DNA of 64,000 bases, taken from assembly GCF_040358985.1 (NCBI RefSeq), contig NZ_CP132932.1:434001-498000 (forward strand), given 5' to 3'. Position 1 is the stretch's first letter, and each line of letters begins with the position of its first letter. Shown one piece after another: positions 5,964 to 63,632 of this stretch. This DNA comes from Tunturibacter empetritectus. GTDB taxonomy: Bacteria; Acidobacteriota; Terriglobia; Terriglobales; Acidobacteriaceae. Position numbers and translations under genes: made by a program. Under the pieces are notes generated by a model, which worked only from the letters and a program-made list of their open reading frames with translations, made no database searches and had not been told where the DNA came from.

Positions 5964-6008
5964 ATCCACCTCAATCGTCCAGGCCCTAACTCTAAAGCAA
6001 CACCACAT

Positions 6009-6228
6009 TTGTTCTTGCCGTTGCCTGTCCTTTTAGTTGTCATTCCCGAAGGGAATCTGCTTTGCGTTGCACTTGTTCTTGCCCTTGCACTTATTCTTGC
6101 CGTTGCACTTGCCCTTGCACTTGTTCTTGCCGTTGCCTGTCCTTCTTGTTGTCATTCCCGAAGGGAATCTGCGTTTGCCGTTGCCTGTCCTTCTTGTCCT
6201 TCCCGAAGGGAACCTGCTTTCACCATCT
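6009..6228 (+). repeat. Repeat E: three small palindromes in a C/T-rich minisatellite
   Basis: Three copies of a palindrome (TTCCC-gaa-GGGAA) lie at 6041-6060, 6151-6172 and 6198-6217. The first two are in the 20-base context CATTCCCGAAGGGAATCTGC. Between and around them run degenerate units built of CTTGCAC and TTGTTCTTGCCGTTG. It fills most of the gap between two convergent genes. Short frames through it are low-complexity Leu/Val/Ala and not proteins. Confidence 0.8.
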
Positions 6229-12842: not shown

Positions 12843-12848
12843 TAAAAT
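12843..12848 (+). promoter_or_regulatory. TAAAAT hexamer 6 nt before the cysteine desulfurase start
   Basis: TAAAAT, then six bases, then the ATG at 12855. There is no Shine-Dalgarno, so a leaderless mRNA is likely. Confidence 0.45.
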
Positions 12849-12854
12849 AAGATC

Positions 12855-14327
12855 ATGCGCCGAATCTATCTAGACGCCAATGCCACCACGCCTCTGCTCC
12901 CCGAGGTCTTCGAGGCCATGCGCCCCTTCTTTCTCGAGCACTACGGCAACGCCAGCTCCATCCATCAACAGGGCCAGTTCGCCCGCGCCGCCGTCGATCA
13001 CGCCCGCGACAGCATCGCCCGCCTCCTCCACTGCCGCACCTCCGAGATCGTCTTCACCTCTGGCGGCACCGAGAGCGACAACCTCGCCCTCTTCGGTACC
13101 CTCGGAAGCCCCAAGCTCACCGGCGAACCCGCCCACCTCATTACCACCAGCATCGAGCACGATGCCATCCTCCGCGCCGCCCAATCCCTCACCGCGAAGA
13201 ATGTAGAAGTCACTTTTTTGCCCAGCACCCCGCAAGGCCTCATCGAACCCGCTGCACTCCTGGCCGCCATCCGCCCCAACACAAAGCTCGTCAGCGTCAT
13301 GTTCGCCAACAACGAGACCGGTGTCATCCAGCCCATCGCCACGCTGGCCGCCATCGCCCACGCCGCCGGCGCTCTCTTCCACACCGACGCCGTCCAGGTC
13401 GTAGGCCGGCTCCCCCTCGACCTCAGCCCCAAAGGCCCGCTCAAGGACGTCGACCTCCTCACCCTCTCCGGCCACAAGATCTACGCCCCCAAAGGCATCG
13501 GCGCCCTCTTCGTGCGACGCAACGTCCGCCTCGCCCCGATGTTCCACGGCGGCTCGCACGAGCGCCAGCGTCGCGCCGGAACCGAAAACGTAGCCGGCAT
13601 CGTCGCCCTCGGCAAAGCCGCCGAACTAGCCCAGCAATGGCTCGCAGAAACCCCCGCCACCAATCCGGCCGAAAATCCGAGCACCATCATAAATCCGAGT
13701 ACCAGCAAGCATCCGAGCATCATCACAAATCCGGGTGTCCCTGCCCAAAGTTCCGGTCCCACGACAGAACCGGGTGCCCCATCCTTCGCGCCCTTTGCGA
13801 AGGGTGGGTTACCGCCTTCCCCAGGTTCCGCTCCCGCCCCAGAACCGGGTGCCCCATACATCGACTCTGATGTGTGGGCATCGGGCGCAAGCCCGACCGC
13901 TCTCCTCGACCGAGCCGACAGCCCCACCCAACTCACAGCCCTCCGCGACCGCCTCGAGCAACGCATCCTCTCTCAGGTAGAAGAGTGCGGCGTCAACGGA
14001 GCCGGAGCACCTCGCGTCTCCAACACCACCAGCCTCTACTTCGACCACATCGAAGCCGAAGCCCTCGTCATCGCCCTCGACCTCAAGGGTCTCTCCGTCA
14101 GCGGAGGCTCCGCCTGCCAGTCCGGCGCCACCGAACCCTCCCACGTCCTCACCGCCATGGGCCTCTCTCCCGCCCGCGCCCGGGCCAGCATCCGCTTCTC
14201 CCTCTCCCGCCTCACCACCGCCGAAGAGATCGACCTGGCCCTTACCCTGATCCCCGCCGCCGTAGCCCGCCTCCGCGACCTCAGCCCCACCTGGCGCAAG
14301 TCCCCCACCGCCCTGATCCCCGCATAA
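12855..14327 (+). CDS. Cysteine desulfurase (NifS/IscS family) with repeat-derived insert
   Basis: A PLP enzyme that moves sulfur from cysteine to Fe-S or thiolation pathways. It starts in the family style (RRIYLDANATTPLLPEV). It has the PLP-binding region FTSGGTESDN, the Schiff-base Lys in SGHKIYAPKG (K208), the RRAGTENVAGIV motif and the catalytic Cys in SGGSACQSGATEPSHVL (C421). At 490 residues it is about 90 longer than usual. The excess (residues about 268-350) is a Pro/Ser/Gly-rich stretch coded by degenerate tandem repeats and two B elements, inserted before LRDRLEQRIL, in a surface region of the fold. The core looks intact, so activity is likely. No Fe-S scaffold gene is next to it. 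mnmA, a possible sulfur acceptor, is 17 kb away. Confidence 0.93.
   Translation: MRRIYLDANATTPLLPEVFEAMRPFFLEHYGNASSIHQQGQFARAAVDHARDSIARLLHCRTSEIVFTSGGTESDNLALFGTLGSPKLTGEPAHLITTSIEHDAILRAAQSLTAKNVEVTFLPSTPQGLIEPAALLAAIRPNTKLVSVMFANNETGVIQPIATLAAIAHAAGALFHTDAVQVVGRLPLDLSPKGPLKDVDLLTLSGHKIYAPKGIGALFVRRNVRLAPMFHGGSHERQRRAGTENVAGIVALGKAAELAQQWLAETPATNPAENPSTIINPSTSKHPSIITNPGVPAQSSGPTTEPGAPSFAPFAKGGLPPSPGSAPAPEPGAPYIDSDVWASGASPTALLDRADSPTQLTALRDRLEQRILSQVEECGVNGAGAPRVSNTTSLYFDHIEAEALVIALDLKGLSVSGGSACQSGATEPSHVLTAMGLSPARARASIRFSLSRLTTAEEIDLALTLIPAAVARLRDLSPTWRKSPTALIPA
13660..13740 (+). repeat. Degenerate 17-19 bp tandem repeat before the B elements
   Basis: Units of the form AATCCGAGCACCATCATA, AATCCGAGTACCAGCAAGC and ATCCGAGCATCATCACA run up to the first CCGGGTG of the B region. 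They encode the Asn/Pro/Ser part of the insert in the desulfurase. Confidence 0.75.
13770..13813 (+). repeat. Repeat B copy 1 (inside the cysteine desulfurase)
   Basis: It begins CCGGGTGCCCCAT and holds hairpin 1 as CCTTCGC (13783-13789) pairing with GCGAAGG (13797-13803). Hairpin 2 is not clear in this copy. It is read as PGAP in the protein. Confidence 0.8.
13845..13905 (+). repeat. Repeat B copy 2 (inside the cysteine desulfurase)
   Basis: CCGGGTGCCCCAT, then hairpin 1 ACATC (13858-13862) with GATGT (13869-13873), then GTGGGCA, then hairpin 2 TCGGGC-gcaa-GCCCGA (13881-13896) and CCGCT. The loop GCAA is of GNRA type. Confidence 0.88.
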
Positions 14328-16535: not shown

Positions 16536-16632
16536 CGACCAGCGGAAGGCCACGCGCAGTTGATCCCGCCAAAACAAGGTATACAAGTCACGAAGTGACC
16601 GCGCCACGCGCAGTGGGCCCGTCCGGCAGGAC
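16536..16632 (+). repeat. Repeat C, copy 1
   Basis: It runs from CCGACCAGCGGAAGG to GGGCCCGTCCGGCAGGAC. Internal palindromes are GTCAC-gaa-GTGAC and CCAC-gcgca-GTGG. It lies between divergent genes, just upstream of the TATAAT (16643-16648) of the glutathione peroxidase gene, unlike the other copies, which follow genes. Confidence 0.85.
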
Positions 16633-16642
16633 ACAGCGCACC

Positions 16643-16648
16643 TATAAT
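16643..16648 (+). promoter_or_regulatory. TATAAT -10 of the glutathione peroxidase gene
   Basis: A perfect TATAAT 28 nt before the ATG at 16677, with an AGGAGA ribosome-binding site in between. This is an ordinary leadered gene. Repeat C occupies the -35 position. Confidence 0.55.
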
Positions 16649-17455: not shown

Positions 17456-17512
17456 GCGGGTGCCCCACACATCGACCTTGATGTGTGGGCATCGGGCGCT
17501 AGCCCGACCGCT
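17456..17512 (+). repeat. Repeat B copy 3, intergenic
   Basis: It begins GCGGGTGCCCCA. Hairpin 1 has a 9-bp stem, CCACACATC (17465-17473) with GATGTGTGG (17480-17488). Hairpin 2 is TCGGGC-gcta-GCCCGA (17492-17507). This is the only B copy outside a coding region and shows the two-hairpin plan most clearly. Confidence 0.88.
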
Positions 17513-17684
17513 CCCGCCAATCTCCTCTCCGCCACCAGCTCCAACCCCAGTTCGCAGCCTCCGCGACCGCATCAGAGACATACCAACCGCAGCCCACCGC
17601 TTTTCGCGTCTTCTCCAACCTCTACATCGTCTATTCTTCTAATATCTAAAATCTTCGCCTCACTTCGAGAGGAACTTCCCGCTC

Positions 17685-21751: not shown

Positions 21752-21848
21752 CGACCAGCGGGAGGACCAACTCCACCGATCTGCCAAAACAAGGTATACA
21801 AGTCACGAAGTGACCGCCCCACGCGTAGTGGGCCCGTCCGGCAGGACA
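21752..21848 (+). repeat. Repeat C, copy 2
   Basis: It runs from CCGACCAGCGGGAGGACC to GGGCCCGTCCGGCAGGAC and is nearly identical to copy 1 in its 3' half. It lies between two convergent genes, next to a REP-like palindrome. Confidence 0.87.
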
Positions 21849-21856
21849 AGGCGCCG

Positions 21857-23161
21857 CTACCGGCGATAGTTCTGAGCGTAGCTGTCGTGAGGCAGCCCCT
21901 CTGCGCGTCCCTTCCTGACGAACGCAAACGCCTCATCCTTGCTCATCGTCCCACCAACCACCACAAGGTACGGTGCCCGCCCGCTCGGCGTAAACACCTC
22001 TGGCCGCAGATCTGGATGCACCACCCTAAGACTCTCCACCTTCTGTTGAGCCTGAGCCTCGCGGTTATACGTAAACGCCACCACCCGCCACTGACCCGTA
22101 CCACCAGCAGCCGGCGCAGGCACCGAAGCCTCCGGCGCAGCAGCGGCAGGAGCAGGAGCAGAAACAGCAGCAGGAGCCTCCAAGGCCGGCACAGGAGCCG
22201 CATCGTTCGCCTCGGTCCCCACTGCAGGCACCACCGCATTCGCCTGCACCGCTCCAGCGGACTTCGACCACCGCCCATGCAGGAACAACGCGATCAGCAG
22301 CAACAGCACCATCGCTCCCCCGCCAATCAGCAGCCGCCGGCCTTCAATCCCGCCCGTCTTCTCCTCCGCAACCCGCACGCGATTTGTCGGATAAGTCGGC
22401 AGCTCCACTGGCGGCGTCTCGACTACCTTCTCCGCTCGAGGCTGGCTCACCGCAACAGGACGAGCCTCCACCCGAATCTCCGTGTCCGGCCGCAACGCCG
22501 CAACCATCTCCGGAATCCCCCACTCCCCGCTGATCCCCTTACGAATAATCGGATCCAGCGGAGGATCTGGCGGCAGCTCCCGCTTCGCCTCTTCCAGCGT
22601 CTTCTTCTGCGTCAACGCCTGCAGCAGCACCACCGCGAAATCGTGCGCGTCCTTGCGCCTCAGCTCGCTGCCCTCCCGCCCTTCAGGAGTTTCACGGATG
22701 CAATCGCTCCGCAGCTTGATCGACTCGCCCACCGCCAGCACATTCGCCGGCTCAATATGCTCATGCACAAAGCCGTTCGTATGCAGCGCGTCCAGCGCCG
22801 ACGCAAGACTCGTCGCCACCTGCTTTGTCTCCTGCACCGTCATGCGCCGTTCCGACACAATCTCGCCCATGTTGGCGTCCACCGGCTCCATCACCGCATA
22901 AACCAGCGACGTCTCATCCAGTGTCACCCGGCCAAACTGAATCAGCTTTACCAGATTGGGATGATTCAACGCCTGAATCCCGCGCCACCGCCCCAGAATC
23001 TCTTCATCATCAAAGTGCGATTCGATCAGCCGTATCACCGTCGGGCCGCCCACGCCGTTTGATGTCGAAAAAAAGGCGCTTCTGCCCTCCGGCCGTATCA
23101 GTTTTGTGAGAGGGAACGCCCCATCGATCGTTCTTCCTTCGTACTCTGTCCACAGTTCCAT
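21857..23161 (-). CDS. Pseudokinase-TM-SPOR-like protein
   Basis: 434 residues in three parts. Residues about 10-265 have a Ser/Thr kinase fold: helix C region (WRGIQALNHPNLVKLIQFG), hinge (YAVMEPVDANMGEIV), and 'LHTNGFVHEHIEPANVL' where HRDxKPxN should be. The catalytic Asp is His (HEH, residues 133-135), the following Lys is Glu, the strand-3 Lys is Arg (TVIRL) and DFG is absent (RSDCIRE). It should not phosphorylate. Residues 277-296 form one TM helix (VLLLLIALFL). An Ala/Pro-rich linker leads to a C-terminal domain (about 357-433, GQWRVVAFTYNREAQAQQKV and APYLVVVGGTMSKDEAFAFV) resembling SPOR, which binds denuded peptidoglycan at division sites. The predicted topology is cytoplasmic pseudokinase and periplasmic SPOR. 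Confidence 0.8.
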   Translation of the reverse strand: MELWTEYEGRTIDGAFPLTKLIRPEGRSAFFSTSNGVGGPTVIRLIESHFDDEEILGRWRGIQALNHPNLVKLIQFGRVTLDETSLVYAVMEPVDANMGEIVSERRMTVQETKQVATSLASALDALHTNGFVHEHIEPANVLAVGESIKLRSDCIRETPEGREGSELRRKDAHDFAVVLLQALTQKKTLEEAKRELPPDPPLDPIIRKGISGEWGIPEMVAALRPDTEIRVEARPVAVSQPRAEKVVETPPVELPTYPTNRVRVAEEKTGGIEGRRLLIGGGAMVLLLLIALFLHGRWSKSAGAVQANAVVPAVGTEANDAAPVPALEAPAAVSAPAPAAAAPEASVPAPAAGGTGQWRVVAFTYNREAQAQQKVESLRVVHPDLRPEVFTPSGRAPYLVVVGGTMSKDEAFAFVRKGRAEGLPHDSYAQNYRR

Positions 23162-23423
23162 GTCTGATCCACCGTCCTGAATATTGACTCAAGGGAGAAA
23201 GCCGCAAAGGGCAAATAAAACAAAGAGGGACGACGAAAGCCCTGCGTCAAACCATACGCCTCATCACCACGCACCATTATCCTTTATTGCGCCGCGTCAC
23301 TCAACGGATACCGGCCCATCGGCGTCGACGGCACATCTTTTTTGTTTGTCACGCAGCAAACCTTTGCTTCTCACGCGGCGACCATCTGTTCTGCCTCCAC
23401 CGCTCGATACAGTGGCTGCTGTA

Positions 23424-23511
23424 AAAGTCCGTTTTGCTTAAGGGCATGGCTTCAGCCGTGCCGCAAAGGCTTTAATTGTATTGCGGCTTTAGCCGCTGAG
23501 GTCCGCCTTTC
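23424..23511 (+). repeat. Repeat D, copy 1 (REP-like)
   Basis: GGCATGGCTTCAGCCGTGCC (23443-23462) and GCGGCTTTAGCCGC (23483-23496) are two palindromes separated by an A/T-rich stretch. The unit recurs at 30190-30284 beside a REP-associated transposase. It lies in a 380-bp gap upstream of the pseudokinase gene, where I see no other gene. Confidence 0.85.
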
Positions 23512-23543
23512 GTTTTGGAGGGCAGCCTCCCACCCCAAACACT

Positions 23544-30121: not shown

Positions 30122-30284
30122 TCTGGCTTACGGGCACGGCTTTAGCCGCGCCATACCTTCAGCCACAAACGGGGCTTTAGTGCCTGCAAAAAAGTCCGTT
30201 CTGCTTAAGGGCACGGCTTCAGCCGTGCCGCAAGAGCTTTGACTGTATTGCGGCTTTAGCCGCTGAGGTCAGCCTTTCGTTCGG
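30122..30284 (+). repeat. Repeat D, one partial and one full copy (REP-like)
   Basis: The full unit 30190-30284 holds GGCACGGCTTCAGCCGTGCC (30210-30229, perfect palindrome) and GCGGCTTTAGCCGC, in the same order and spacing as at 23424. A half copy (GGGCACGGCTTTAGCCGCGCC) is at 30131-30151. It lies 60 bp upstream of a REP-associated transposase remnant. Confidence 0.87.
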
Positions 30285-30329
30285 AAGGGTATTTTTTCAT
30301 CACCCTCTTCAGCCCTAAGGTACCCGCAT

Positions 30330-30341: not shown

Positions 30342-30730
30342 ATGGCGATCCCGCCCCGCACCTCTCGCCCCGGCACCTACTTCATCACCAGCGCAACCCA
30401 CAACCGCCGCCGCCTCTTCCAGGTAGACCGCCACGCCCAACTCTTCCTCGATACCATCCAACACTATCGAGCCAAAGGCCACTACAAACTCCACGCCTTC
30501 GTCATCATGCCCGATCACATTCACCTTCTCCTCACCCCACAAACCATCTCCCTCGAGAGAGCCGTAGGGCTAATCAAAGGAGGCTTCTCCCACCGCCTCT
30601 CCTCCTCCCAACCCATCTGGCAGCGAAGCTTCACCGAACCTACATCCACCAAAATCCCGTGCGCGCCAACCTTGTATCTAGCGCAGAAGTTTACCCCTGG
30701 TCTTCGGCGACCAGCATCGCCCCCAACTAA
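30342..30730 (+). pseudogene. REP-associated tyrosine transposase (RAYT), frameshifted by internal deletion
   Basis: The N-terminal part matches RAYT/Y1_Tnp proteins: GTYFITSATHNRRRLFQ and HAFVIMPDHIHLLLTP with the HUH motif (HIH). After IWQRSFTE the frame goes wrong. The expected tail continues in another frame as YIHQNPVRANLVSSAEVYPW (from 30641) to a TAA at 30728-30730. About 15-20 residues normally between WQRSF and YIHQNPV are missing. The probable catalytic Tyr of the YIxQNPV helix is thus lost from the open frame, whose native-frame tail is nonsense to 30806. RAYTs move or process REP elements; this one should be inactive. Confidence 0.85.
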
Positions 30731-45412: not shown

Positions 45413-47536
45413 ATGATCAAAGAAACCTTACTGGAACCAACCGCCGACACCGAGGCGTCCCTCGACTCCTGTACCCCCCGCCGCTCCACGGCCATCCTCG
45501 TTCTCACCGGCCTCTGGCTCATCATCTTCTTCGCAGCCCTCTTCACTCCCCCGCTGCTCGACGACGCCGACGCCACCCACGCCAGCGCCGCCCGTCACAT
45601 GGCCCTCTCAGGCGACCTCGTCACCCTCCGCGTCGACGGCATCCGCTACCTCGAAAAAGCGCCTCTGCCCTACTGGCTCGGAGCCCTCAGCTTTCGCCTC
45701 TTCGGCTTCAACAGCTTCGCCGCTCATCTTCCTCAGGCCATCGGCGTCCTTCTCCTGGCTCTGCTTGGCTACTACTGGGCCTATCGAGCCTTCAACGCCC
45801 GCACCGCCTTCTACACCGGCCTCGCAACCCTCACCACCGTCGGCGTCTTCCTCTTCACCCGCTACTACATTCCCGAGGTCCTGCTCTCCCTCTTCCTCGC
45901 CATCGCCCTTTTCTGCCTCCTACGATCCCTCAACGCAACCACAACCCAGCAGAGTACAGACACCCGCGCATCGTTCTCCCCAGCTGTCTATGCTTACACC
46001 ATGTGGACGGCGCTCGCTCTCGCCGTCCTCACCAAGGGCCTCGTGGCTCTCGTCTTTTTCTTCGGCGCAGCCATCGTCTATCTCGCTCTCAGCGGCGAAT
46101 ACAAAAACTGGCGCAGTCTCAAACCCTTCACCGGCATCCTGCTCTTCCTCGTCATCGCGGCTCCTTGGCACATCCTCGCCGGCCTGCGCAACACCGGAGG
46201 CATGAACGGCCATGGCTTCTTCTGGTTCTACTTCATCAACGAGCACGTCCTCCGCTTCCTCGGCCGCCGCTACCCAAAGGACTACAATAGACTCCCGGGC
46301 TATCTTTTCTGGAGCCTTCATCTCGTCTGGCTCTTCCCCTGGTCGCTCTTCTGCGGAACCCTCGTCCGCCAAACCTACCTCGCCTACCAGCGCTACCGAG
46401 CATCTAACCCAGCACCAATCGACGAAGCAAGAACCTTCTACTGGCAGCCATACGCTGTCGTGGTAGTCGGCCTCATCCTGCAAAACGCCTTCAAGATCCC
46501 CTACATCTTCACGCTCTTCCTGGCGCTCATCCTATTCCTGCTCCACGGTCTTCGCCGCCGCCAGTCGAACTCCCACTCCGGCACTCCGCTGCTTCGCGTC
46601 AACACCCTCGCTCAGCGCAGCACGCTCCTTCTCAGCATCTTCGCGTCACTAGTCCTTGTCTTCTTCTCCCTCTCCACCAATCAGGAGTACTACACCTTCC
46701 CCGCCTACCTCTCCATGATCCTCCTCCTAGCCGTCGCCCTCGCGCACGCCGAGCAGACCTACTCCACCGACTCCGGCTCCCGCCGCTGGATCACCGTCGG
46801 CCACGCCACCTTCACCGTCCTCGGCGTCGCCATCGCCATCACCCTCCTCTACGGCCTCTGGACCTCCCGCCACCTTCCCTTTGTTCCGGACATCGGCAAC
46901 CTCCTCGCCCATCGCGGTGTAGGCGACTACACCCTCTCCATGTCCGGCATCTTCGATCTCACCGGCCCCAGCTTCGCCGCCCTGCGTCTTCCCGCAACAC
47001 TAGCCGCCATCGCCTTCCTCATCGGTCCCGCCATCGCCTGGCTTCTGCGCTCCCAGCGCCGTCACCTCGCCGCAACCCTAGCCGTAGCCCTCACCGCCAC
47101 CAGCTTCTTCATCGCAGCCCACATCGCCTTCGCCCGCTTCGCCCCCATGCTCTCCTCAAAGAGCTTCGCCGACACCATCCAGCAGCTCGAAGCCTACCAT
47201 TCCATCTCCCGCGAAAACAAAGTCATCCTCTTTGGCGATCAGTCCTACGGCTCCTCGATCACCTTCTACCTCGACCGTCAGATCTATCTCGTCAACGGCC
47301 GAGCCTCCTCCATGCTCTTCGGCGGCACCTTCCCCGACGCGCCTCCCGTCTTCCTCACTTCGGAAGATCTCCTGACGATCTGGGGCCAGGGAGAACGCAA
47401 ACTTCTCTTCGTCCCCTTGGAGAAACGCGACACCGTCGACCAACTCCTCGGCAACCACAAAGTCCTTCTCTTCGAAAGCTCCGGCAAAGCCCTCTTTACC
47501 GACCGTCCCCTGGACTATCCAAGCAGAACTCCCTGA
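45413..47536 (+). CDS. ArnT/PMT-type membrane glycosyltransferase
   Basis: About 707 residues: about 12 TM helices and a C-terminal soluble domain. GT-C features include LFTPPLLDDADATHASAARHM (D-D in the first periplasmic loop, the polyprenyl-phosphate sugar site) and RVDGIRYLEKAPLPYWLGAL. It is closest in look to ArnT/GT83 enzymes that transfer sugars from polyprenyl phosphate. AGAGAG lies about 7 nt before the ATG at 45413; the upstream in-frame start at 45188 runs through an AT-rich intergenic stretch. It shares the next gene's layout closely, so the two are paralogues. Confidence 0.85.
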   Translation: MIKETLLEPTADTEASLDSCTPRRSTAILVLTGLWLIIFFAALFTPPLLDDADATHASAARHMALSGDLVTLRVDGIRYLEKAPLPYWLGALSFRLFGFNSFAAHLPQAIGVLLLALLGYYWAYRAFNARTAFYTGLATLTTVGVFLFTRYYIPEVLLSLFLAIALFCLLRSLNATTTQQSTDTRASFSPAVYAYTMWTALALAVLTKGLVALVFFFGAAIVYLALSGEYKNWRSLKPFTGILLFLVIAAPWHILAGLRNTGGMNGHGFFWFYFINEHVLRFLGRRYPKDYNRLPGYLFWSLHLVWLFPWSLFCGTLVRQTYLAYQRYRASNPAPIDEARTFYWQPYAVVVVGLILQNAFKIPYIFTLFLALILFLLHGLRRRQSNSHSGTPLLRVNTLAQRSTLLLSIFASLVLVFFSLSTNQEYYTFPAYLSMILLLAVALAHAEQTYSTDSGSRRWITVGHATFTVLGVAIAITLLYGLWTSRHLPFVPDIGNLLAHRGVGDYTLSMSGIFDLTGPSFAALRLPATLAAIAFLIGPAIAWLLRSQRRHLAATLAVALTATSFFIAAHIAFARFAPMLSSKSFADTIQQLEAYHSISRENKVILFGDQSYGSSITFYLDRQIYLVNGRASSMLFGGTFPDAPPVFLTSEDLLTIWGQGERKLLFVPLEKRDTVDQLLGNHKVLLFESSGKALFTDRPLDYPSRTP

Positions 47537-47612: not shown

Positions 47613-49724
47613 ATGCAGAACCAGCTAAAACTCGACGAAGAAACCCCAGTGCACGAGACCTCTCCACAAAACGCCACATCGCGCCGCCTTTGGAATCCCG
47701 TCTCTCTCGCTGTCATCTTCTTTCTCTGGCTCATCCTCCAGATCGGCGGCCTCTTCACCCCCGGCCTCCTCGACGACGTCGACTCCATCTACATCGAGAT
47801 CGCCCGCGAGATGCTCCAGCGCCACGACTACGTTACCCCCTACATCGACGGCATACGCTTCTTCGACAAGCCCCCCCTCATGTACTGGATGGCCGCCGGC
47901 TCCATGCATCTCTTCGGCATTCACGACTGGGCCGCCCGACTCCCTCTCGCTCTCGCCGCCCTCGCGCTTCTCCTTGCCGTCTACGCCCTCGGCATACGCC
48001 TCTTCGCAACAGTCTCTCCGTCTGAAAGACCCGACCGCGGAGGCTTCTACGCCGCCATCGCCCTCGCCACCAGCATCGGCCCCTACATCTACACCCGCTT
48101 CTACATCCCGGACATCCTCATCGCTCTCTGGATGACCCTCGCCGTCCACCTCTTCCTCATAGCCCTCGACCACATCCACGAATCACCACAAAACCGGACA
48201 TCTGAGATCGAGTCACAAAACCGGGTGCCCCATCTTCGCGGCAGTCTTATCGCCGCTCAGATGGGCAATCGCGTAAGCGATCCGCTCTCCTCCCCCATCC
48301 ACGAAAGCCCGGGTGCCCCATCCTTCGCGCACTTTGCGAAGGGTGCGAACGTAAGCTCCTCCGCTCTCCTCCCCTGCCTCGCCTTCGCCGCAGTCATGGC
48401 CCTAAACGTCCTGACCAAAGGACTCATAGGCGTGGTCTTCCCCATAGCCTTCGTCCTCCTCTACCTCGCCATCACCAGACAACTCCACCTCCTCCTGAGA
48501 CTCCACCTCATCCCCGGCACCCTGGTCTTCCTGACCATAGCCGCCCCCTGGCACATCCTCGCCGCCCTCCGAAACCCAGCCATCCCTATGACCCCAGGCC
48601 TCGGTCTCCCAGCCAAAGCGGGCTGGGTCTGGTTTTATCTTTACAACGAGCACATCGCCCGTTTCCTCTCCAAACGCATCCCCCACGACTACGGCCAAAC
48701 CCCTGTCCTAGTTTTCTGGATCTACCTCGCCATCTGGATCATGCCCTGGACCGTCTTCCTCCCCGGAGCGATCGCCGCCCACATCCGAACTCTCCGCCAC
48801 CGCATCGCCACAAACACCATCACTCGCGCACGCGAGTATGAAGCATCGCTCTCTCTCCTTCTCTGGAGCCTCCTCGTCATGGGCTTCTTCTCCCTCTCCA
48901 GCCGCCAGGAGTACTACTCTATCCCCGCAATCCCCGCTCTATGCCTTATGGGCGGCGGCCTCCTCGCTCAAGCCGACCAGACTCAAAGTCTCTCCTCCAC
49001 CAAACTAAAAGCAGCCAGCAGCGCCCTCCGCTGGCACCTCTGCCTCCTCCTTCCCCTCTCCACCACCCTCGCCATCGTCTGCGGATACTTCGCCCTCACG
49101 GCACCCCACCCCGCCCCCGGCACCGACCTCGCATCTCTCCTCAACTCCAACCCCGACTTCTACAACCTCTCCCTGGGCCACCTCTTCGACCTCACCGGAG
49201 ACGCCATGGGACTCTTCCGCGGCCCCCTCACCGCCGTAGCCCTCAGCATGCTCGGCGTCGGCCTCGTCAGCTACCTTCTGCGCCTCAGCTCCTTCACCTA
49301 CGCCGCAAATCTCGTGCTGGCCGCCGCCATGACCATCACCCTCCTCGCCGCCCACGAGGGCCTCGTCCGCTTCTATCCCGTCCTCGGATCGAAGAATCTC
49401 GCCCTCACCGTCAAACAGCAACTCCGCCCCGGCGACCGCGTCATCATCGACGGCTGGCTCTCCTCCGGCTCCTCCGTCCTCTTCTACACCGGCCAACAGG
49501 CAGGCCTCGTCAACGGGCGCATCTACGGTCCTTGGTACGGCTCCTTCTGGCCCGACGCTCCCCCCATCTTCGGCACCGACGACGGACTCCGCCAGGCCTG
49601 GATCGGACCCCAGCGCATCTTCCTGCTCACCTTCAGCAAACAACGCGCCGCCGACCTCGCACGCTTCGCCCCCGTTCATCTCCTCGGGGCAGAGGGCGGC
49701 AAATTCATCCTCTCCAATCGATAA
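47613..49724 (+). CDS. ArnT/PMT-type membrane glycosyltransferase with repeat-derived insert
   Basis: 703 residues with the GT-C plan of the previous gene: FTPGLLDDVDSIYIEIAREM, YIDGIRFFDKPPLMYWMAAG, and a C-terminal region with VLFYTGQQAGLVNGRIYGPW. Between residues about 189 and 249, after FLIALDHIHESPQ, lies a Pro/Ser/Asn-rich segment encoded by two B elements (48221-48345), absent from the paralogue, in a loop before helix AAVMALNVLTKGLIGVVF. The membrane core is otherwise complete. It probably works with the previous and next genes on lipid-linked sugars. Confidence 0.86.
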   Translation: MQNQLKLDEETPVHETSPQNATSRRLWNPVSLAVIFFLWLILQIGGLFTPGLLDDVDSIYIEIAREMLQRHDYVTPYIDGIRFFDKPPLMYWMAAGSMHLFGIHDWAARLPLALAALALLLAVYALGIRLFATVSPSERPDRGGFYAAIALATSIGPYIYTRFYIPDILIALWMTLAVHLFLIALDHIHESPQNRTSEIESQNRVPHLRGSLIAAQMGNRVSDPLSSPIHESPGAPSFAHFAKGANVSSSALLPCLAFAAVMALNVLTKGLIGVVFPIAFVLLYLAITRQLHLLLRLHLIPGTLVFLTIAAPWHILAALRNPAIPMTPGLGLPAKAGWVWFYLYNEHIARFLSKRIPHDYGQTPVLVFWIYLAIWIMPWTVFLPGAIAAHIRTLRHRIATNTITRAREYEASLSLLLWSLLVMGFFSLSSRQEYYSIPAIPALCLMGGGLLAQADQTQSLSSTKLKAASSALRWHLCLLLPLSTTLAIVCGYFALTAPHPAPGTDLASLLNSNPDFYNLSLGHLFDLTGDAMGLFRGPLTAVALSMLGVGLVSYLLRLSSFTYAANLVLAAAMTITLLAAHEGLVRFYPVLGSKNLALTVKQQLRPGDRVIIDGWLSSGSSVLFYTGQQAGLVNGRIYGPWYGSFWPDAPPIFGTDDGLRQAWIGPQRIFLLTFSKQRAADLARFAPVHLLGAEGGKFILSNR
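48221..48283 (+). repeat. Repeat B copy 4 (inside glycosyltransferase gene)
   Basis: CCGGGTGCCCCAT, then hairpin 1 with CATCT-tc-GCGGC (48231-48242) pairing GCCGC-tc-AGATG (48252-48263), then GGGCA, then hairpin 2 ATCGC-gtaa-GCGAT (48268-48281). The loop GTAA is of GNRA type. It is read in a frame different from the other coding copies (NRVPH). Confidence 0.85.
48308..48345 (+). repeat. Repeat B copy 5 (inside glycosyltransferase gene)
   Basis: CCCGGGTGCCCCAT, then hairpin 1 CCTTCGC (48322-48328) with GCGAAGG (48335-48341). Hairpin 2 is eroded. It is read as PGAPSFAHFAKG, the same frame as copy 1. Confidence 0.8.
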
Positions 49725-51005: not shown

Positions 51006-51186
51006 TGTCCTGCCGGACGGGCCTCCTACGCGGAGGGCGGGCGTTCGCACGCCTTTTTAAAGCTTCGCCCGGTCCTCCCGTTGGTCGGAATCAATCTTCC
51101 CTCGCGACCAGCGGGAGCGCCACGCGAAGCGGGTATACAAGTCACGAAGTGACCGCCCCACGCGCAGTGGGCCCGTCCGGCAGGAC
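51006..51186. repeat. Repeat C as an inverted pair
   Basis: The left arm starts GTCCTGCCGGACGGGCC (51007-51023) and ends GGTCCTCCCGTTGGTCGG (51071-51088), both inverted relative to the plus-strand C units. The right arm is a plus-strand unit, 51105-51186, ending GGCCCGTCCGGCAGGACC. The two can form a long cruciform or RNA stem. They lie between convergent genes. Confidence 0.85.
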
Positions 51187-51203
51187 CAGATTCTGAACCA
51201 CCC

Positions 51204-61429: not shown

Positions 61430-61538
61430 CCGACCAACGGGAGGACCAACCGAAGGGGTACACAAGTCACGAAGTGACCGCCCCACGCGAAGTGGGCCCG
61501 TCCGGCAGGACAAGCAATTAACAGTCCGGCAGGACAAG
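61430..61538 (+). repeat. Repeat C, copy 4, with duplicated 3' end
   Basis: It runs from CCGACCAACGGGAGGACC to GGGCCCGTCCGGCAGGAC, and then the end AGTCCGGCAGGACAAG is duplicated at 61523-61538. It lies between two genes on the same strand. Confidence 0.85.
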
Positions 61539-61568
61539 TAGTTGAGAGCCATCGCAACCCCACTGCGA

Positions 61569-61574
61569 TACCCT
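61569..61574 (+). promoter_or_regulatory. TACCCT hexamer 6 nt before the large membrane protein start
   Basis: TACCCT, a 6-nt gap, then the ATG at 61581. The in-frame ATG at 61542 is upstream of it. Confidence 0.4.
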
Positions 61575-61580
61575 CAACAC

Positions 61581-63632
61581 ATGCAGCGCGACCGGCTCCC
61601 CTACCTCCTGATCCCACTAGCCGCCTGCATCGCCATCCTCCCTCTTCTCCTCAATGGCTGCTCCTGCGGCCACGACTTCGACTTCCATCTCCTCAACTGG
61701 ATGGAAGCCGCCCGCCAGTTCACCCACGGCAACCTCCACCCTCACTGGGCCTACACTGCGGCTTATAACGCCGGCGAACCCCGCTTCGTCTTCTACCCGC
61801 CTCTCTCCTGGACCCTCGGCGCAATCCTCACCCTCCTCTTCCCCATCACTGCAACGCCAATCCTCTACACCTGGCTAGCCCTCACCCTTAGCGGCCTCGC
61901 CCTCCACCGTCTAGCGCGCGAATTCACCTCACCCACCGCCGCACTCGTCGCAGCAGTCCTCTACACGGTGAACCCCTACATGCTCTTCACCGCCTACGAG
62001 CGCACCGCCTACGCCGAACTTCTCGCCACCGCCTTCATCCCACTCCTCCTCCACGCCATCCTGCGTCAGCGAGTCACCATCCCTCGAATCGCCATCCCCA
62101 TAGCGCTCCTCTGGCTCACCAACGCCCCCGCCGCCGTCATGAGCTGCTACACCCTAGCCCTCCTCACCCTAGTCCGAGTAGCCACAGATCTGGGTACAGA
62201 TCCGGATACAGGTCCGGGTCCAGATGCGGATACAGATCCGGGTGCCCCATCCTATGCAGTCTCATCGCATAGGATGGGGTATTCGCGCCACGCGCGAACC
62301 GCAGTCACAGAAACATCCGGCAGCATCCACAAACCGGGTGCCCCATATCTCGACTCTGAGATGTGGGCATCGCGCGCAAGCGCGATCGCTCTCGCCACCA
62401 CCAGTAACGCCCGATCTCAAACACCGCTCAGCCTAACCCTCAACACCATCGCCGGCACCGCCCTCGGCCTCGCCCTCGCCGCCTTCTATCTCCTCCCCGC
62501 CGCTTACGAACGCCGCTACGTCCAAATCGCGATGGCCATCATCCCCAACATGCGCATCCAGGACAACTTCCTCTTCCACCACACCGGCGACACCCTCCAC
62601 GATCAAGTCCTCCACACCGCATCTCTCCTGGCCCTCATCCTGCTTGCCACAACCCTCACAGCCCTCATCATCTCCATCACCAAACTTCGTTCACCCAGCA
62701 AACCACAATCCCAGACACCCAATCCAGCACCGCAGAAACCATCCAACCCGGAACGACAAATACCTGCCGGCACAAACCACCAGCCGTCATCTCTACCAAA
62801 GCACGATATCGTCATCTCGACCGAAGCGACGGACAGCATCATCGTCCGTCGCGAAGTGGAGAGCCCCCCGCATCTCGTCCACATCGGCAACGCACTCCTC
62901 GCATCCCTAGCCATCCTCACCATAACCATCGCCCTCCTTCTCACCCCACTCACCTCCATCCTCTGGAACCACACCCCCGAACTAGCCTTCCTCCAATTCC
63001 CCTGGCGTCTCCTCGCGATCCTCGCCGCCATCATGAGCCTCGCCGTCGCCCTCGCCATCCGTCGCACAAACCTCAACCCCACAATCAGCACAGCAATCAC
63101 CATCGCCCTCGCCGCAGCTCTCACCTCCCCGGCCTACGCCCTCTTCCACCAATCCTGCGACGAAGAGGACACCCCCACCGCCCGCGAAGCTCTCTTCCAC
63201 TCCAACCGCGGCACCGACCCCACCGACGAGTACACCCCCACCACCGCCGACAACGACTCCCTCGCCCAAACCGACCCACCCTATTGGCTCTCGGAAGACC
63301 CCAACGCCAAAGCCCCCACCGAAACCCAACCCGCCCCTGCACCCACGCACCTTACCCTCAACCCGCCAACCCCCGAAGACCTCATCCTCAACCTTCGCGA
63401 CTACCCCGCCTGGCACATCACCGACAACGGGTCTCTCCTCGCCACGCGCGACCAGCGCGACGACGGCCTCATCGCCATCCACCTCCCCGCAGGCCCAGCC
63501 CGCATCGCAATCACCTACGCCCGCACCCCAGACCAAACCCTCGGCGACGCCATCTCCCTCGTCTCCCTCGCCGTTCTTCTCTTCATCCTCCGTCGAAATC
63601 CCTCACCATCAAGCCCACATCCTTCAAGCTGA
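61581..63632 (+). CDS. Large GT-C-like membrane protein, PTPS_related/DUF6541-like, with two repeat inserts
   Basis: 683 residues with about 10 TM helices. The N-terminal loop NGCSCGHDFDFHLLNWMEAA with HPHWAYTAAYNAGEPRFVFY resembles a family of membrane proteins annotated '6-pyruvoyl-tetrahydropterin synthase related', GT-C-like in plan; a polyprenyl-linked glycosyltransferase is a guess. Residues about 203-271 (Asp/Pro/Gly-rich) are coded by a 12-bp minisatellite and two B elements; residues about 410-431 by an A element (HDIVISTEATDSIIVRREVE). Both inserts lie in loops. The ATG at 61581 has a TANNNT hexamer 6 nt in front and begins a TM segment. Confidence 0.75.
   Translation: MQRDRLPYLLIPLAACIAILPLLLNGCSCGHDFDFHLLNWMEAARQFTHGNLHPHWAYTAAYNAGEPRFVFYPPLSWTLGAILTLLFPITATPILYTWLALTLSGLALHRLAREFTSPTAALVAAVLYTVNPYMLFTAYERTAYAELLATAFIPLLLHAILRQRVTIPRIAIPIALLWLTNAPAAVMSCYTLALLTLVRVATDLGTDPDTGPGPDADTDPGAPSYAVSSHRMGYSRHARTAVTETSGSIHKPGAPYLDSEMWASRASAIALATTSNARSQTPLSLTLNTIAGTALGLALAAFYLLPAAYERRYVQIAMAIIPNMRIQDNFLFHHTGDTLHDQVLHTASLLALILLATTLTALIISITKLRSPSKPQSQTPNPAPQKPSNPERQIPAGTNHQPSSLPKHDIVISTEATDSIIVRREVESPPHLVHIGNALLASLAILTITIALLLTPLTSILWNHTPELAFLQFPWRLLAILAAIMSLAVALAIRRTNLNPTISTAITIALAAALTSPAYALFHQSCDEEDTPTAREALFHSNRGTDPTDEYTPTTADNDSLAQTDPPYWLSEDPNAKAPTETQPAPAPTHLTLNPPTPEDLILNLRDYPAWHITDNGSLLATRDQRDDGLIAIHLPAGPARIAITYARTPDQTLGDAISLVSLAVLLFILRRNPSPSSPHPSS
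62190..62237 (+). repeat. 12-bp minisatellite before B copy 6
   Basis: Units such as GATACAGATCCG and GGTACAGATCCG run into CCGGGTGCCCCAT. They encode GTDPDTGPGPDADTDPG in the membrane protein. Confidence 0.78.
62238..62300 (+). repeat. Repeat B copy 6 (inside the membrane protein gene)
   Basis: CCGGGTGCCCCAT, then hairpin 1 CATCCTATGC (62249-62258) with GCATAGGATG (62267-62276), then GGGGTA, then hairpin 2 TTCGCGC-cac-GCGCGAA (62282-62298). Confidence 0.85.
62334..62395 (+). repeat. Repeat B copy 7 (inside the membrane protein gene)
   Basis: CCGGGTGCCCCA, then hairpin 1 ATCTC (62347-62351) with GAGAT (62358-62362), then TGGGCA, then hairpin 2 ATCGCGC-gcaa-GCGCGAT (62369-62386) and CGCT. 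A second stretch CCCA (62343-62346) can pair with TGGG (62364-62367). Confidence 0.87.
62811..62874 (+). repeat. Repeat A, in frame inside the membrane protein gene
   Basis: It begins GTCATCTCGACCGAA, has the hairpin GCGACGGA-(10 nt)-TCCGTCGC, and ends GTGGAGAGCCCCCCGCAT. The eight-base arms differ fully from those at 9961 and 17309. Confidence 0.85.

Follow-up and report, generated by a model that had tools for sequence, protein, structure and literature searches.

Results

The ArnT-like gene and the B elements of the window

The window analyzed here is a stretch of 64,000 nucleotides from the genome of Tunturibacter empetritectus. One of its genes, coding for an ArnT/PMT-like membrane glycosyltransferase, includes two copies of a short repeat, named B, in a single loop, at 48222 and 48310. 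In the B element, a constant tag (CGGGTGCCCCA...TGGG) encloses a hairpin; the stem varies among copies while its pairing is kept. The copies in the window were numbered 1 to 7 (13772, 13847, 17458, 48223, 48311, 62240 and 62336), and they and the genes around them are as follows.

12846..14327, plus strand: cysteine desulfurase (NifS/IscS-type) gene with B copies 1 and 2 (PF00266, E 6e-75)
13771..13808, plus strand: B copy 1, PGAP frame
13846..13905, plus strand: B copy 2, two hairpins, PGAP frame
17457..17516, plus strand: B copy 3; the surrounding ORF has no Pfam match
45413..47536, plus strand: paralogue of the ArnT-like gene without the insert, 33-34% identical to it
47613..49724, plus strand: ArnT/PMT-like membrane glycosyltransferase gene, 703 amino acids (ORF; PF13231, E 1.6e-10; orthologue alignment)
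48222..48290, plus strand: B copy 4, with tag, hairpin 1 (CCCCATCT...AGATGGG), hairpin 2 (ATCGC..GCGAT) and CCGCTCTCC tail, RVPH frame
48310..48359, plus strand: B copy 5, single-hairpin form, with tag and hairpin 1 (ATCCTTCGC...GCGAAGGGT), PGAP frame
61542..63632, plus strand: membrane protein ORF with B copies 6 and 7 (PTPS_related, 26.5 bits, cut-off 26.4)
62239..62305, plus strand: B copy 6, PGAP frame
62335..62395, plus strand: B copy 7, PGAP frame

The gene at 47613-49724 scored far under the cut-off of the ArnT model NF009784, and the gene at 12846..14327 scored under the cut-offs of the NifS and IscS models. A search of the window for cores with at most one mismatch returned eight, when 0.78 were expected and no more than three appeared in any of 100 shuffles; seven are B and the eighth (57017, minus strand) is not. 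An Rfam scan of the window gave no match. The original prediction, that two B elements lie inside one of two ArnT-like paralogues and that the other paralogue lacks them, was confirmed. It was also exact in stating that copy 4 is read in a different frame from copies 1, 2, 5, 6 and 7: the former is translated as '...NRVPH...' and the latter as '...PGAP...'.

The paralogue at 45413 had been proposed as a direct reference for the junctions of the insert. Since it is only 33-34% identical to the interrupted gene on alignment, it is a poor reference and cannot place them. The orthologues are a better guide. The segment that follows 'FLIALDHIH' has 94 residues in the gene of the window and 37 in many orthologues, and both B copies sit within the 57-residue excess. 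An orthologue with 97% identity is found in Edaphobacter lichenicola M8UP22, a genome (G150; also G300) ranked in the same species as that of the window, and it has B at the same place in the loop. In M8US30 the site holds a B element with a different stem between the same flanks. Two species farther away (L074, L087) have B in the loop with a stem that departs from that of the window by changes in pairs, and B is missing from the loop of three closer relatives (L072, L073, L106).

Altogether, B-like inserts were found in 12 of 66 distinct loop segments, a count that includes the gene of the window, from which one false pattern match (L097) was removed, and in which two loops that look B-like by eye (L041, L082) do not figure. 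In other species this loop carries inserts of the GTCATCCTGAGCG type (4 of the 66 segments), VIPTG repeated in tandem (1 of 66) or a two-hairpin insert unrelated to B (L088). Judged by these sequences, the loop of the ArnT-like gene is a natural insertion sink. Across six of the loci (L084, L093, L126, L090, L088, L104) at least three other kinds of repeat occupy it, all in frame.

The window has other repeats as well. An interspersed repeat, D1 (GGTATACAAGTCACGAAGTGACC...GTCCGGCAGGAC), occurs in four direct copies (16568-16644, 21783-21859, 51122-51198 and 61447-61523) and as an inverted part at 51006-51040. A tandem array of the CTTGCC/CTTGCA type with a 58-bp near-duplicate around it lies at 6006-6175, and a 48-bp tandem duplication, 96% identical, at 966-1061.

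The stems vary in sequence and keep their pairing

Exact CGGGTGCCCCA cores were found 57 times in the genome, compared to once for a reversed control pattern. As is the case for REPs, B is a short palindromic repeat present in high copy number. For the stop and strand counts, 51 of the 57 cores were kept as hairpins, including the partial copy at 617790, and six cores with no hairpin partner (367464, 1261218, 2766855, 2768562, 3692733 and 3692758) were dropped. Hairpin 1 lies between CCCCA and TGGG(G). A second hairpin followed by a CCG tail is present in 26 of the 51 copies, as determined with a loose pattern, and seven have the single-hairpin form with a TGGGA..GTA-like end. The stems fall into sub-types of 11, 9, 8, 6, 4, 3 and 2 copies, plus eight singletons.

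Among the 44 distinct hairpins of this genome, an arm forms 5.00 of 6 interior pairs with its own partner and 3.75 with the arms of other copies; among 66 distinct hairpins from other genomes the values are 4.94 and 3.03. In 2000 permutations the mean was always below the observed one. In a set of 22 copies, hand-picked for variety among those of 32 nucleotides, all six variable pairs show two-sided changes, and the covariation score was 0.413, compared to 0.145 when shuffled and at most 0.143 when slid. A larger set of 106 distinct hairpins was not hand-picked; only hairpins with at least 60% Watson-Crick pairs in the interior were admitted to it, which inflates the share of paired positions. 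In 71 of these 106, T.G occupies the pair adjoining the constant base, and the next five stem positions (530 cells) include four G.T pairs and 30 mismatches. Such scarcity of G.T suggests that the hairpin forms in DNA rather than in RNA.

Differences between close relatives show how the copies change. Copy 2 in M8UP30 differs from its counterpart in the window genome at two neighboring pairs, on both arms. Most B copies are common to the sister genome, as judged by comparing the position lists by eye, and turnover is therefore slow. Of the ten differences examined between the genome of the window (G000) and its 97% identical relative G150, none proved to be a clean recent insertion matched by an empty site, and three were the same B copy with one tag base altered.

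B elements flank a RAYT gene

The genome has two Y1_Tnp genes. One of them, G000:C1:617917-618372, has near-identical B elements on both sides, in the same direction, the 5′ one with a partial duplication. This gene matches PF01797, exceeds the cut-off of the 'REP-associated tyrosine transposase' model NF047646 (94.6 bits, cut-off 80) and has TnpA-REP 4er8 as its sole PDB match (E 2.5e-10). The neighbor of B is, by its sequence, a RAYT, and B flanks it as the repeats of REP systems and REPtrons do.

The association was then examined in 30 genomes, each represented by its best relative of this RAYT (in our genome, the gene itself). At 18 of the 30 loci, where 0.14 loci were expected, there is an exact core no more than 400 bp away, and at 10 there is one on both sides of the gene. 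When one mismatch was allowed the number rose to 29, and the remaining locus (L241) has a core with two mismatches; at all 12 loci without an exact core a hairpin is visible by eye. Thirty control loci, the best general Y1_Tnp match of each genome, had an exact core in no case, a core with up to one mismatch in five and with up to two in 16. Because 16 control loci do likewise, the two-mismatch core of L241 is no evidence when taken alone. The RAYT loci with exact tags do not form one clade; there are seven label changes.

The numbers of RAYT genes and B elements do not run parallel across 150 genomes. One genome (G034) has 135 matches to the B pattern and zero Y1_Tnp or RAYT matches, and another (G059) has 27 Y1_Tnp matches and zero B. 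The stem sub-type seen at the intact RAYT accounts for 11 of the 51 copies in its own genome; the others differ.

Two further loci were observed. At G000:C1:2540085 (L144), a B copy is followed by the apparent first codons of a RAYT gene, apparently what remains of a second, broken copy of the RAYT that B flanks. The second Y1_Tnp gene, at 30378-30632 of the window, is RAYT-like (NF047646, 76 bits on a 105-amino acid fragment, cut-off 80) and adjoins a 100-bp two-hairpin repeat, D5, present at 30190-30289 and 23423-23522. This gene and D5 apparently constitute a second REP-like system unrelated to B.

B elements are locked to one strand

In the genome of the window, 50 of the 51 copies have B on the locally C-rich strand. 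In a second genome, M8US30, the same was true for all 20 copies in a sample of its 46 that included every copy in the minority orientation of its contig, which makes 70 of 71 tested copies in the two genomes. To the left of dnaA (1.8225 Mb), 25 of 27 copies are on the plus strand; to its right, 21 of 24 are on the minus strand. Provided that dnaA marks the origin, the strand that reads GGGTG, which is the C-rich one, is the leading-strand template.

The skew (G-C)/(G+C) of the window is -0.31 over its 64 kb. Of three ORFs on its minus strand, two have the plus-strand skew (-0.31 and -0.36) and the third has -0.02; gene direction alone thus does not set the skew. Among 16 pieces of 6 kb taken at even spacing from the genome, most were less skewed than the window, and the median absolute skew was 0.10, below that of most B flanks.

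IS200/IS605 elements insert as a single strand at the replication fork, according to the description in PMC6006769. Their target is the lagging-strand template. The strand locking of B fits, by analogy, single-strand insertion at the fork; its polarity is opposite to the simplest expectation from lagging-strand-template insertion.

B elements within genes and their reading frames

At least 15 of the 51 copies lie inside 12 Pfam-recognized genes, in sense or antisense, a count that genes without a Pfam match escape. A Pfam scan of 30 ORFs around B, that of the RAYT included, was used to accept genes. A gene caller based on codon usage was rejected: it placed all 68 genes of the window on the plus strand despite minus-strand ORFs that share the skew. 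Since what the caller had learnt was the strand skew, a Pfam match became the sole criterion for a gene, and this exposed the antisense copies. Sense copies are found in seven genes, those of the cysteine desulfurase (two copies), the ArnT-like protein (two), the PTPS_related protein (two; a marginal match), RsmE, an ABC-F protein, PheT and ValS, and antisense copies in the genes of RecG, MnmG, RsmB, a XerC-type recombinase and an Fpg-type glycosylase. A further B in PheT with an altered core was left out of the 15 copies, as was a doubtful one in a VWA protein. The ORFs of EutC, isochorismatase and MiaA were not counted as genic since in them B is upstream of the domain.

Comparison with PDB structures placed inserts between conserved parts of RsmE (168-207), ValS (477-533), MnmG (about 138-161) and Fpg (85-145). 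As described for the Rickettsia palindromic elements, B is, by its location, inserted in frame in conserved proteins. ValS (L145, G000:C1 at about 2.58 Mb) also has a second repeat-like insert, which reads 'QAVILSGAKNPEEANA'.

The sense frames 0, +1 and +2 are used by 0, 8 and 2 genic copies, respectively. Thus, B DNA is open in more than one frame, as originally predicted: two sense frames are read in the genome, and there are antisense copies in Pfam-recognized genes. The prediction had gone on to argue that the element avoids stops by its composition, and the scan of all six frames against shuffled copies that it had called for was done on the 51 copies of the genome using dinucleotide shuffles. 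Over 75 nucleotides, 30 copies are open in frame 0 and 31 in frame +2, compared to 31.6 and 31.8 after shuffling, so that composition suffices for these two frames. In the PGAP frame, 46 of the 51 copies are open, compared to 32.1 (sd 3.6) after shuffling, and the reverse frames have 1.78 open per copy and 1.41 after shuffling, a level reached by none of 200 shuffles. Therefore, the argument from composition stood for frames 0 and +2 and failed for the PGAP and reverse frames.

Hairpin 1 alone (mean 37 nucleotides) was less open than its shuffles in frames 0 and +2 (37 and 34 copies, compared to 42.5 and 42.1). Over all sense frames it had 2.35 open per copy and 2.48 after shuffling, with 193 of 200 shuffles as high. 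Since the PGAP frame is more open than composition predicts, the sequence of B itself favors one frame. This frame is open in 36 of the 41 copies other than the ten sense-genic ones, five of the 41 being antisense-genic. It is used by eight of the ten sense-genic copies (p about 0.02 against the shares of open frames, the ten copies being in seven genes and not independent).

Distribution of B

Of 150 genomes sampled from the Acidobacteriaceae, 131 match the hairpin pattern, with up to 207 matches in one genome; these are matches rather than copies, as nested ends count double. The reversed control pattern had at most one match per strand in the 150. In a sample of 396 genomes of the phylum, the pattern was present in 43 of 44 members of the family. 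Outside it, 50 of 352 genomes had a match, 43 of them once and none more than four times, which resembles the reversed control. The 32 distinct out-of-family matches listed average 2.1 of 6 interior pairs, none with five or more, and one of those listed (G303) forms a hairpin by eye in a shifted register. The genome samples include one duplicate (G150/G300) and apparently two others (G151/G464 and G152/G366, with equal places).

Discussion

B is probably a REP-type repeat family of the Acidobacteriaceae that is mobilized by RAYT (TnpA-REP) single-strand DNA transposases. REPs with a GTAG tag and their RAYT (REPtrons), intragenic REPs and acidobacterial TIRYT genes are already known, and the description of REPtrons in PMC3733652 shares several traits with B: they are short tagged hairpins in many copies that flank a RAYT, some copies are intragenic, including in DNA repair and tRNA synthetase genes, where they encode 20-30 residues, and there are sub-families with alternative complementary stem residues. 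There are also differences. No GTAG (or GTGG-type) tetranucleotide was found 5′ of the hairpin; the constant tag of B, GGGTG...TGGG, reads CGGGTG before CCCCA, so that B was not filed as a GTAG REP. A form with two hairpins is common in B. In our judgement, formed on the account in PMC3733652, B stems vary much more between copies than REPtron stems. G.T pairs, often reported there for REPs, are nearly absent in B except at one fixed position.

The TIRtrons of Acidobacteria, as PMC3733652 describes them, also resemble B in having tyrosine transposases (TIRYT) flanked by repeats, among others in Terriglobus saanensis and Granulicella mallensis, and one TIR of Koribacter belongs to a repeat family; that text, whose description is the basis of our comparison, sets TIRs mostly apart from REPs. 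The Rickettsia palindromic elements, known to us through the same description, are palindromic repeats in frame in likely functional proteins, as B is, but belong to another phylum, and the intragenic RPE-4 and RPE-6 are equated there with CGTC-type repeats that, unlike B, have no transposase association. REPINs are also RAYT-linked non-autonomous mobile hairpins; in the account of PMC3116915 they consist of two inverted REPs, whereas B has one hairpin or two in series. The B family, its stem variety and its strand locking were found described nowhere in the open-access literature searched.

In the mechanism that we propose, RAYT would recognize the tag and the shape of the hairpin instead of the letters of the stem, and would move B as a single strand at the replication fork, leaving it in one orientation to the fork. 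Copies that land in genes would survive only when they add whole codons and no stop in a tolerant loop, and would then simply be translated. The stems may turn over by exchange between copies or by hairpin-templated repair, rewriting both arms at once. A RAYT that acts on single-stranded tag and hairpin at the fork would explain the flanking, the strand locking and a constraint on shape only. According to the TnpA-REP experiments as presented in PMC8266576, the tag matters for activity in the E. coli, Stenotrophomonas and Marinomonas systems, with system-dependent tolerance, and in Marinomonas exchanging the stem for its complement had a moderate effect only, with a mismatch being harmful. By analogy, the Marinomonas result fits a transposase that reads the shape. 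The E. coli REP stem is reported there to need a bulge; B has instead the one conserved T.G pair (71/106). The stricter version, in which RAYT reads only the tag and a perfect DNA hairpin while the stem letters drift, and the fork-loaded B feeds housekeeping proteins with new in-frame peptides, sense or antisense, is tentative, and we would not yet expect it to hold in full.

The strong covariation could also mean that B acts as RNA, being transcribed into a hairpin that serves in regulation or termination and is kept for its RNA structure, and many copies are indeed outside Pfam-recognized genes. Such an element is hard to reconcile with the scarcity of G.U away from the one fixed position (4/530 cells), which is unlike usual RNA helices, with copies that are both sense and antisense in genes, with an orientation that tracks the DNA strand skew and with the negative Rfam scan of the window; we consider it highly unlikely. 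Somewhat less so, yet still unlikely, is a purely mutational origin of the co-changes, by template switching in imperfect hairpins, with B spread by recombination or gene conversion and no protein that reads the hairpin. Concerted change of hairpin arms inside genes is reported for nematomorph mitochondria, with template switching as one proposed cause in the account of PMC6649704, and both the two adjacent pairs changed in copy 2 of M8UP30 and the different stem within the same flanks at the ArnT site of M8US30 are what such a process would produce. It leaves unexplained the RAYT flanking, the constant tag and the strand locking, and template switching may well be the source of stem variety within the RAYT explanation.

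The location in genes could also be seen as an adaptation in which B peptides were recruited as useful protein modules. B-like inserts recur in the same ArnT loop (12/66 distinct segments, other repeats being present in more), and composition does not fully account for the openness of one sense frame. On the other hand, the peptide changes with each stem and frame, antisense copies exist too, and the loop holds at least three other repeat types in other species, as would be expected of a tolerant site more than of a chosen peptide. Recruitment is the least probable of the explanations considered here.

Repeat families are usually found by sequence; as B varies in much of its sequence and keeps its shape, a search of that kind would miss part of its copies. 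The many stem variants that occur naturally in the family could be used to ask what RAYT reads, and its strand locking, a trace on the scale of the genome, fits insertion as a single strand coupled to the fork. The copies that lie in frame in ValS, PheT, MnmG and RsmE suggest a gauge of how much foreign peptide conserved enzymes tolerate, and B copies account for odd insertions that might otherwise be mistaken for family-specific domains.
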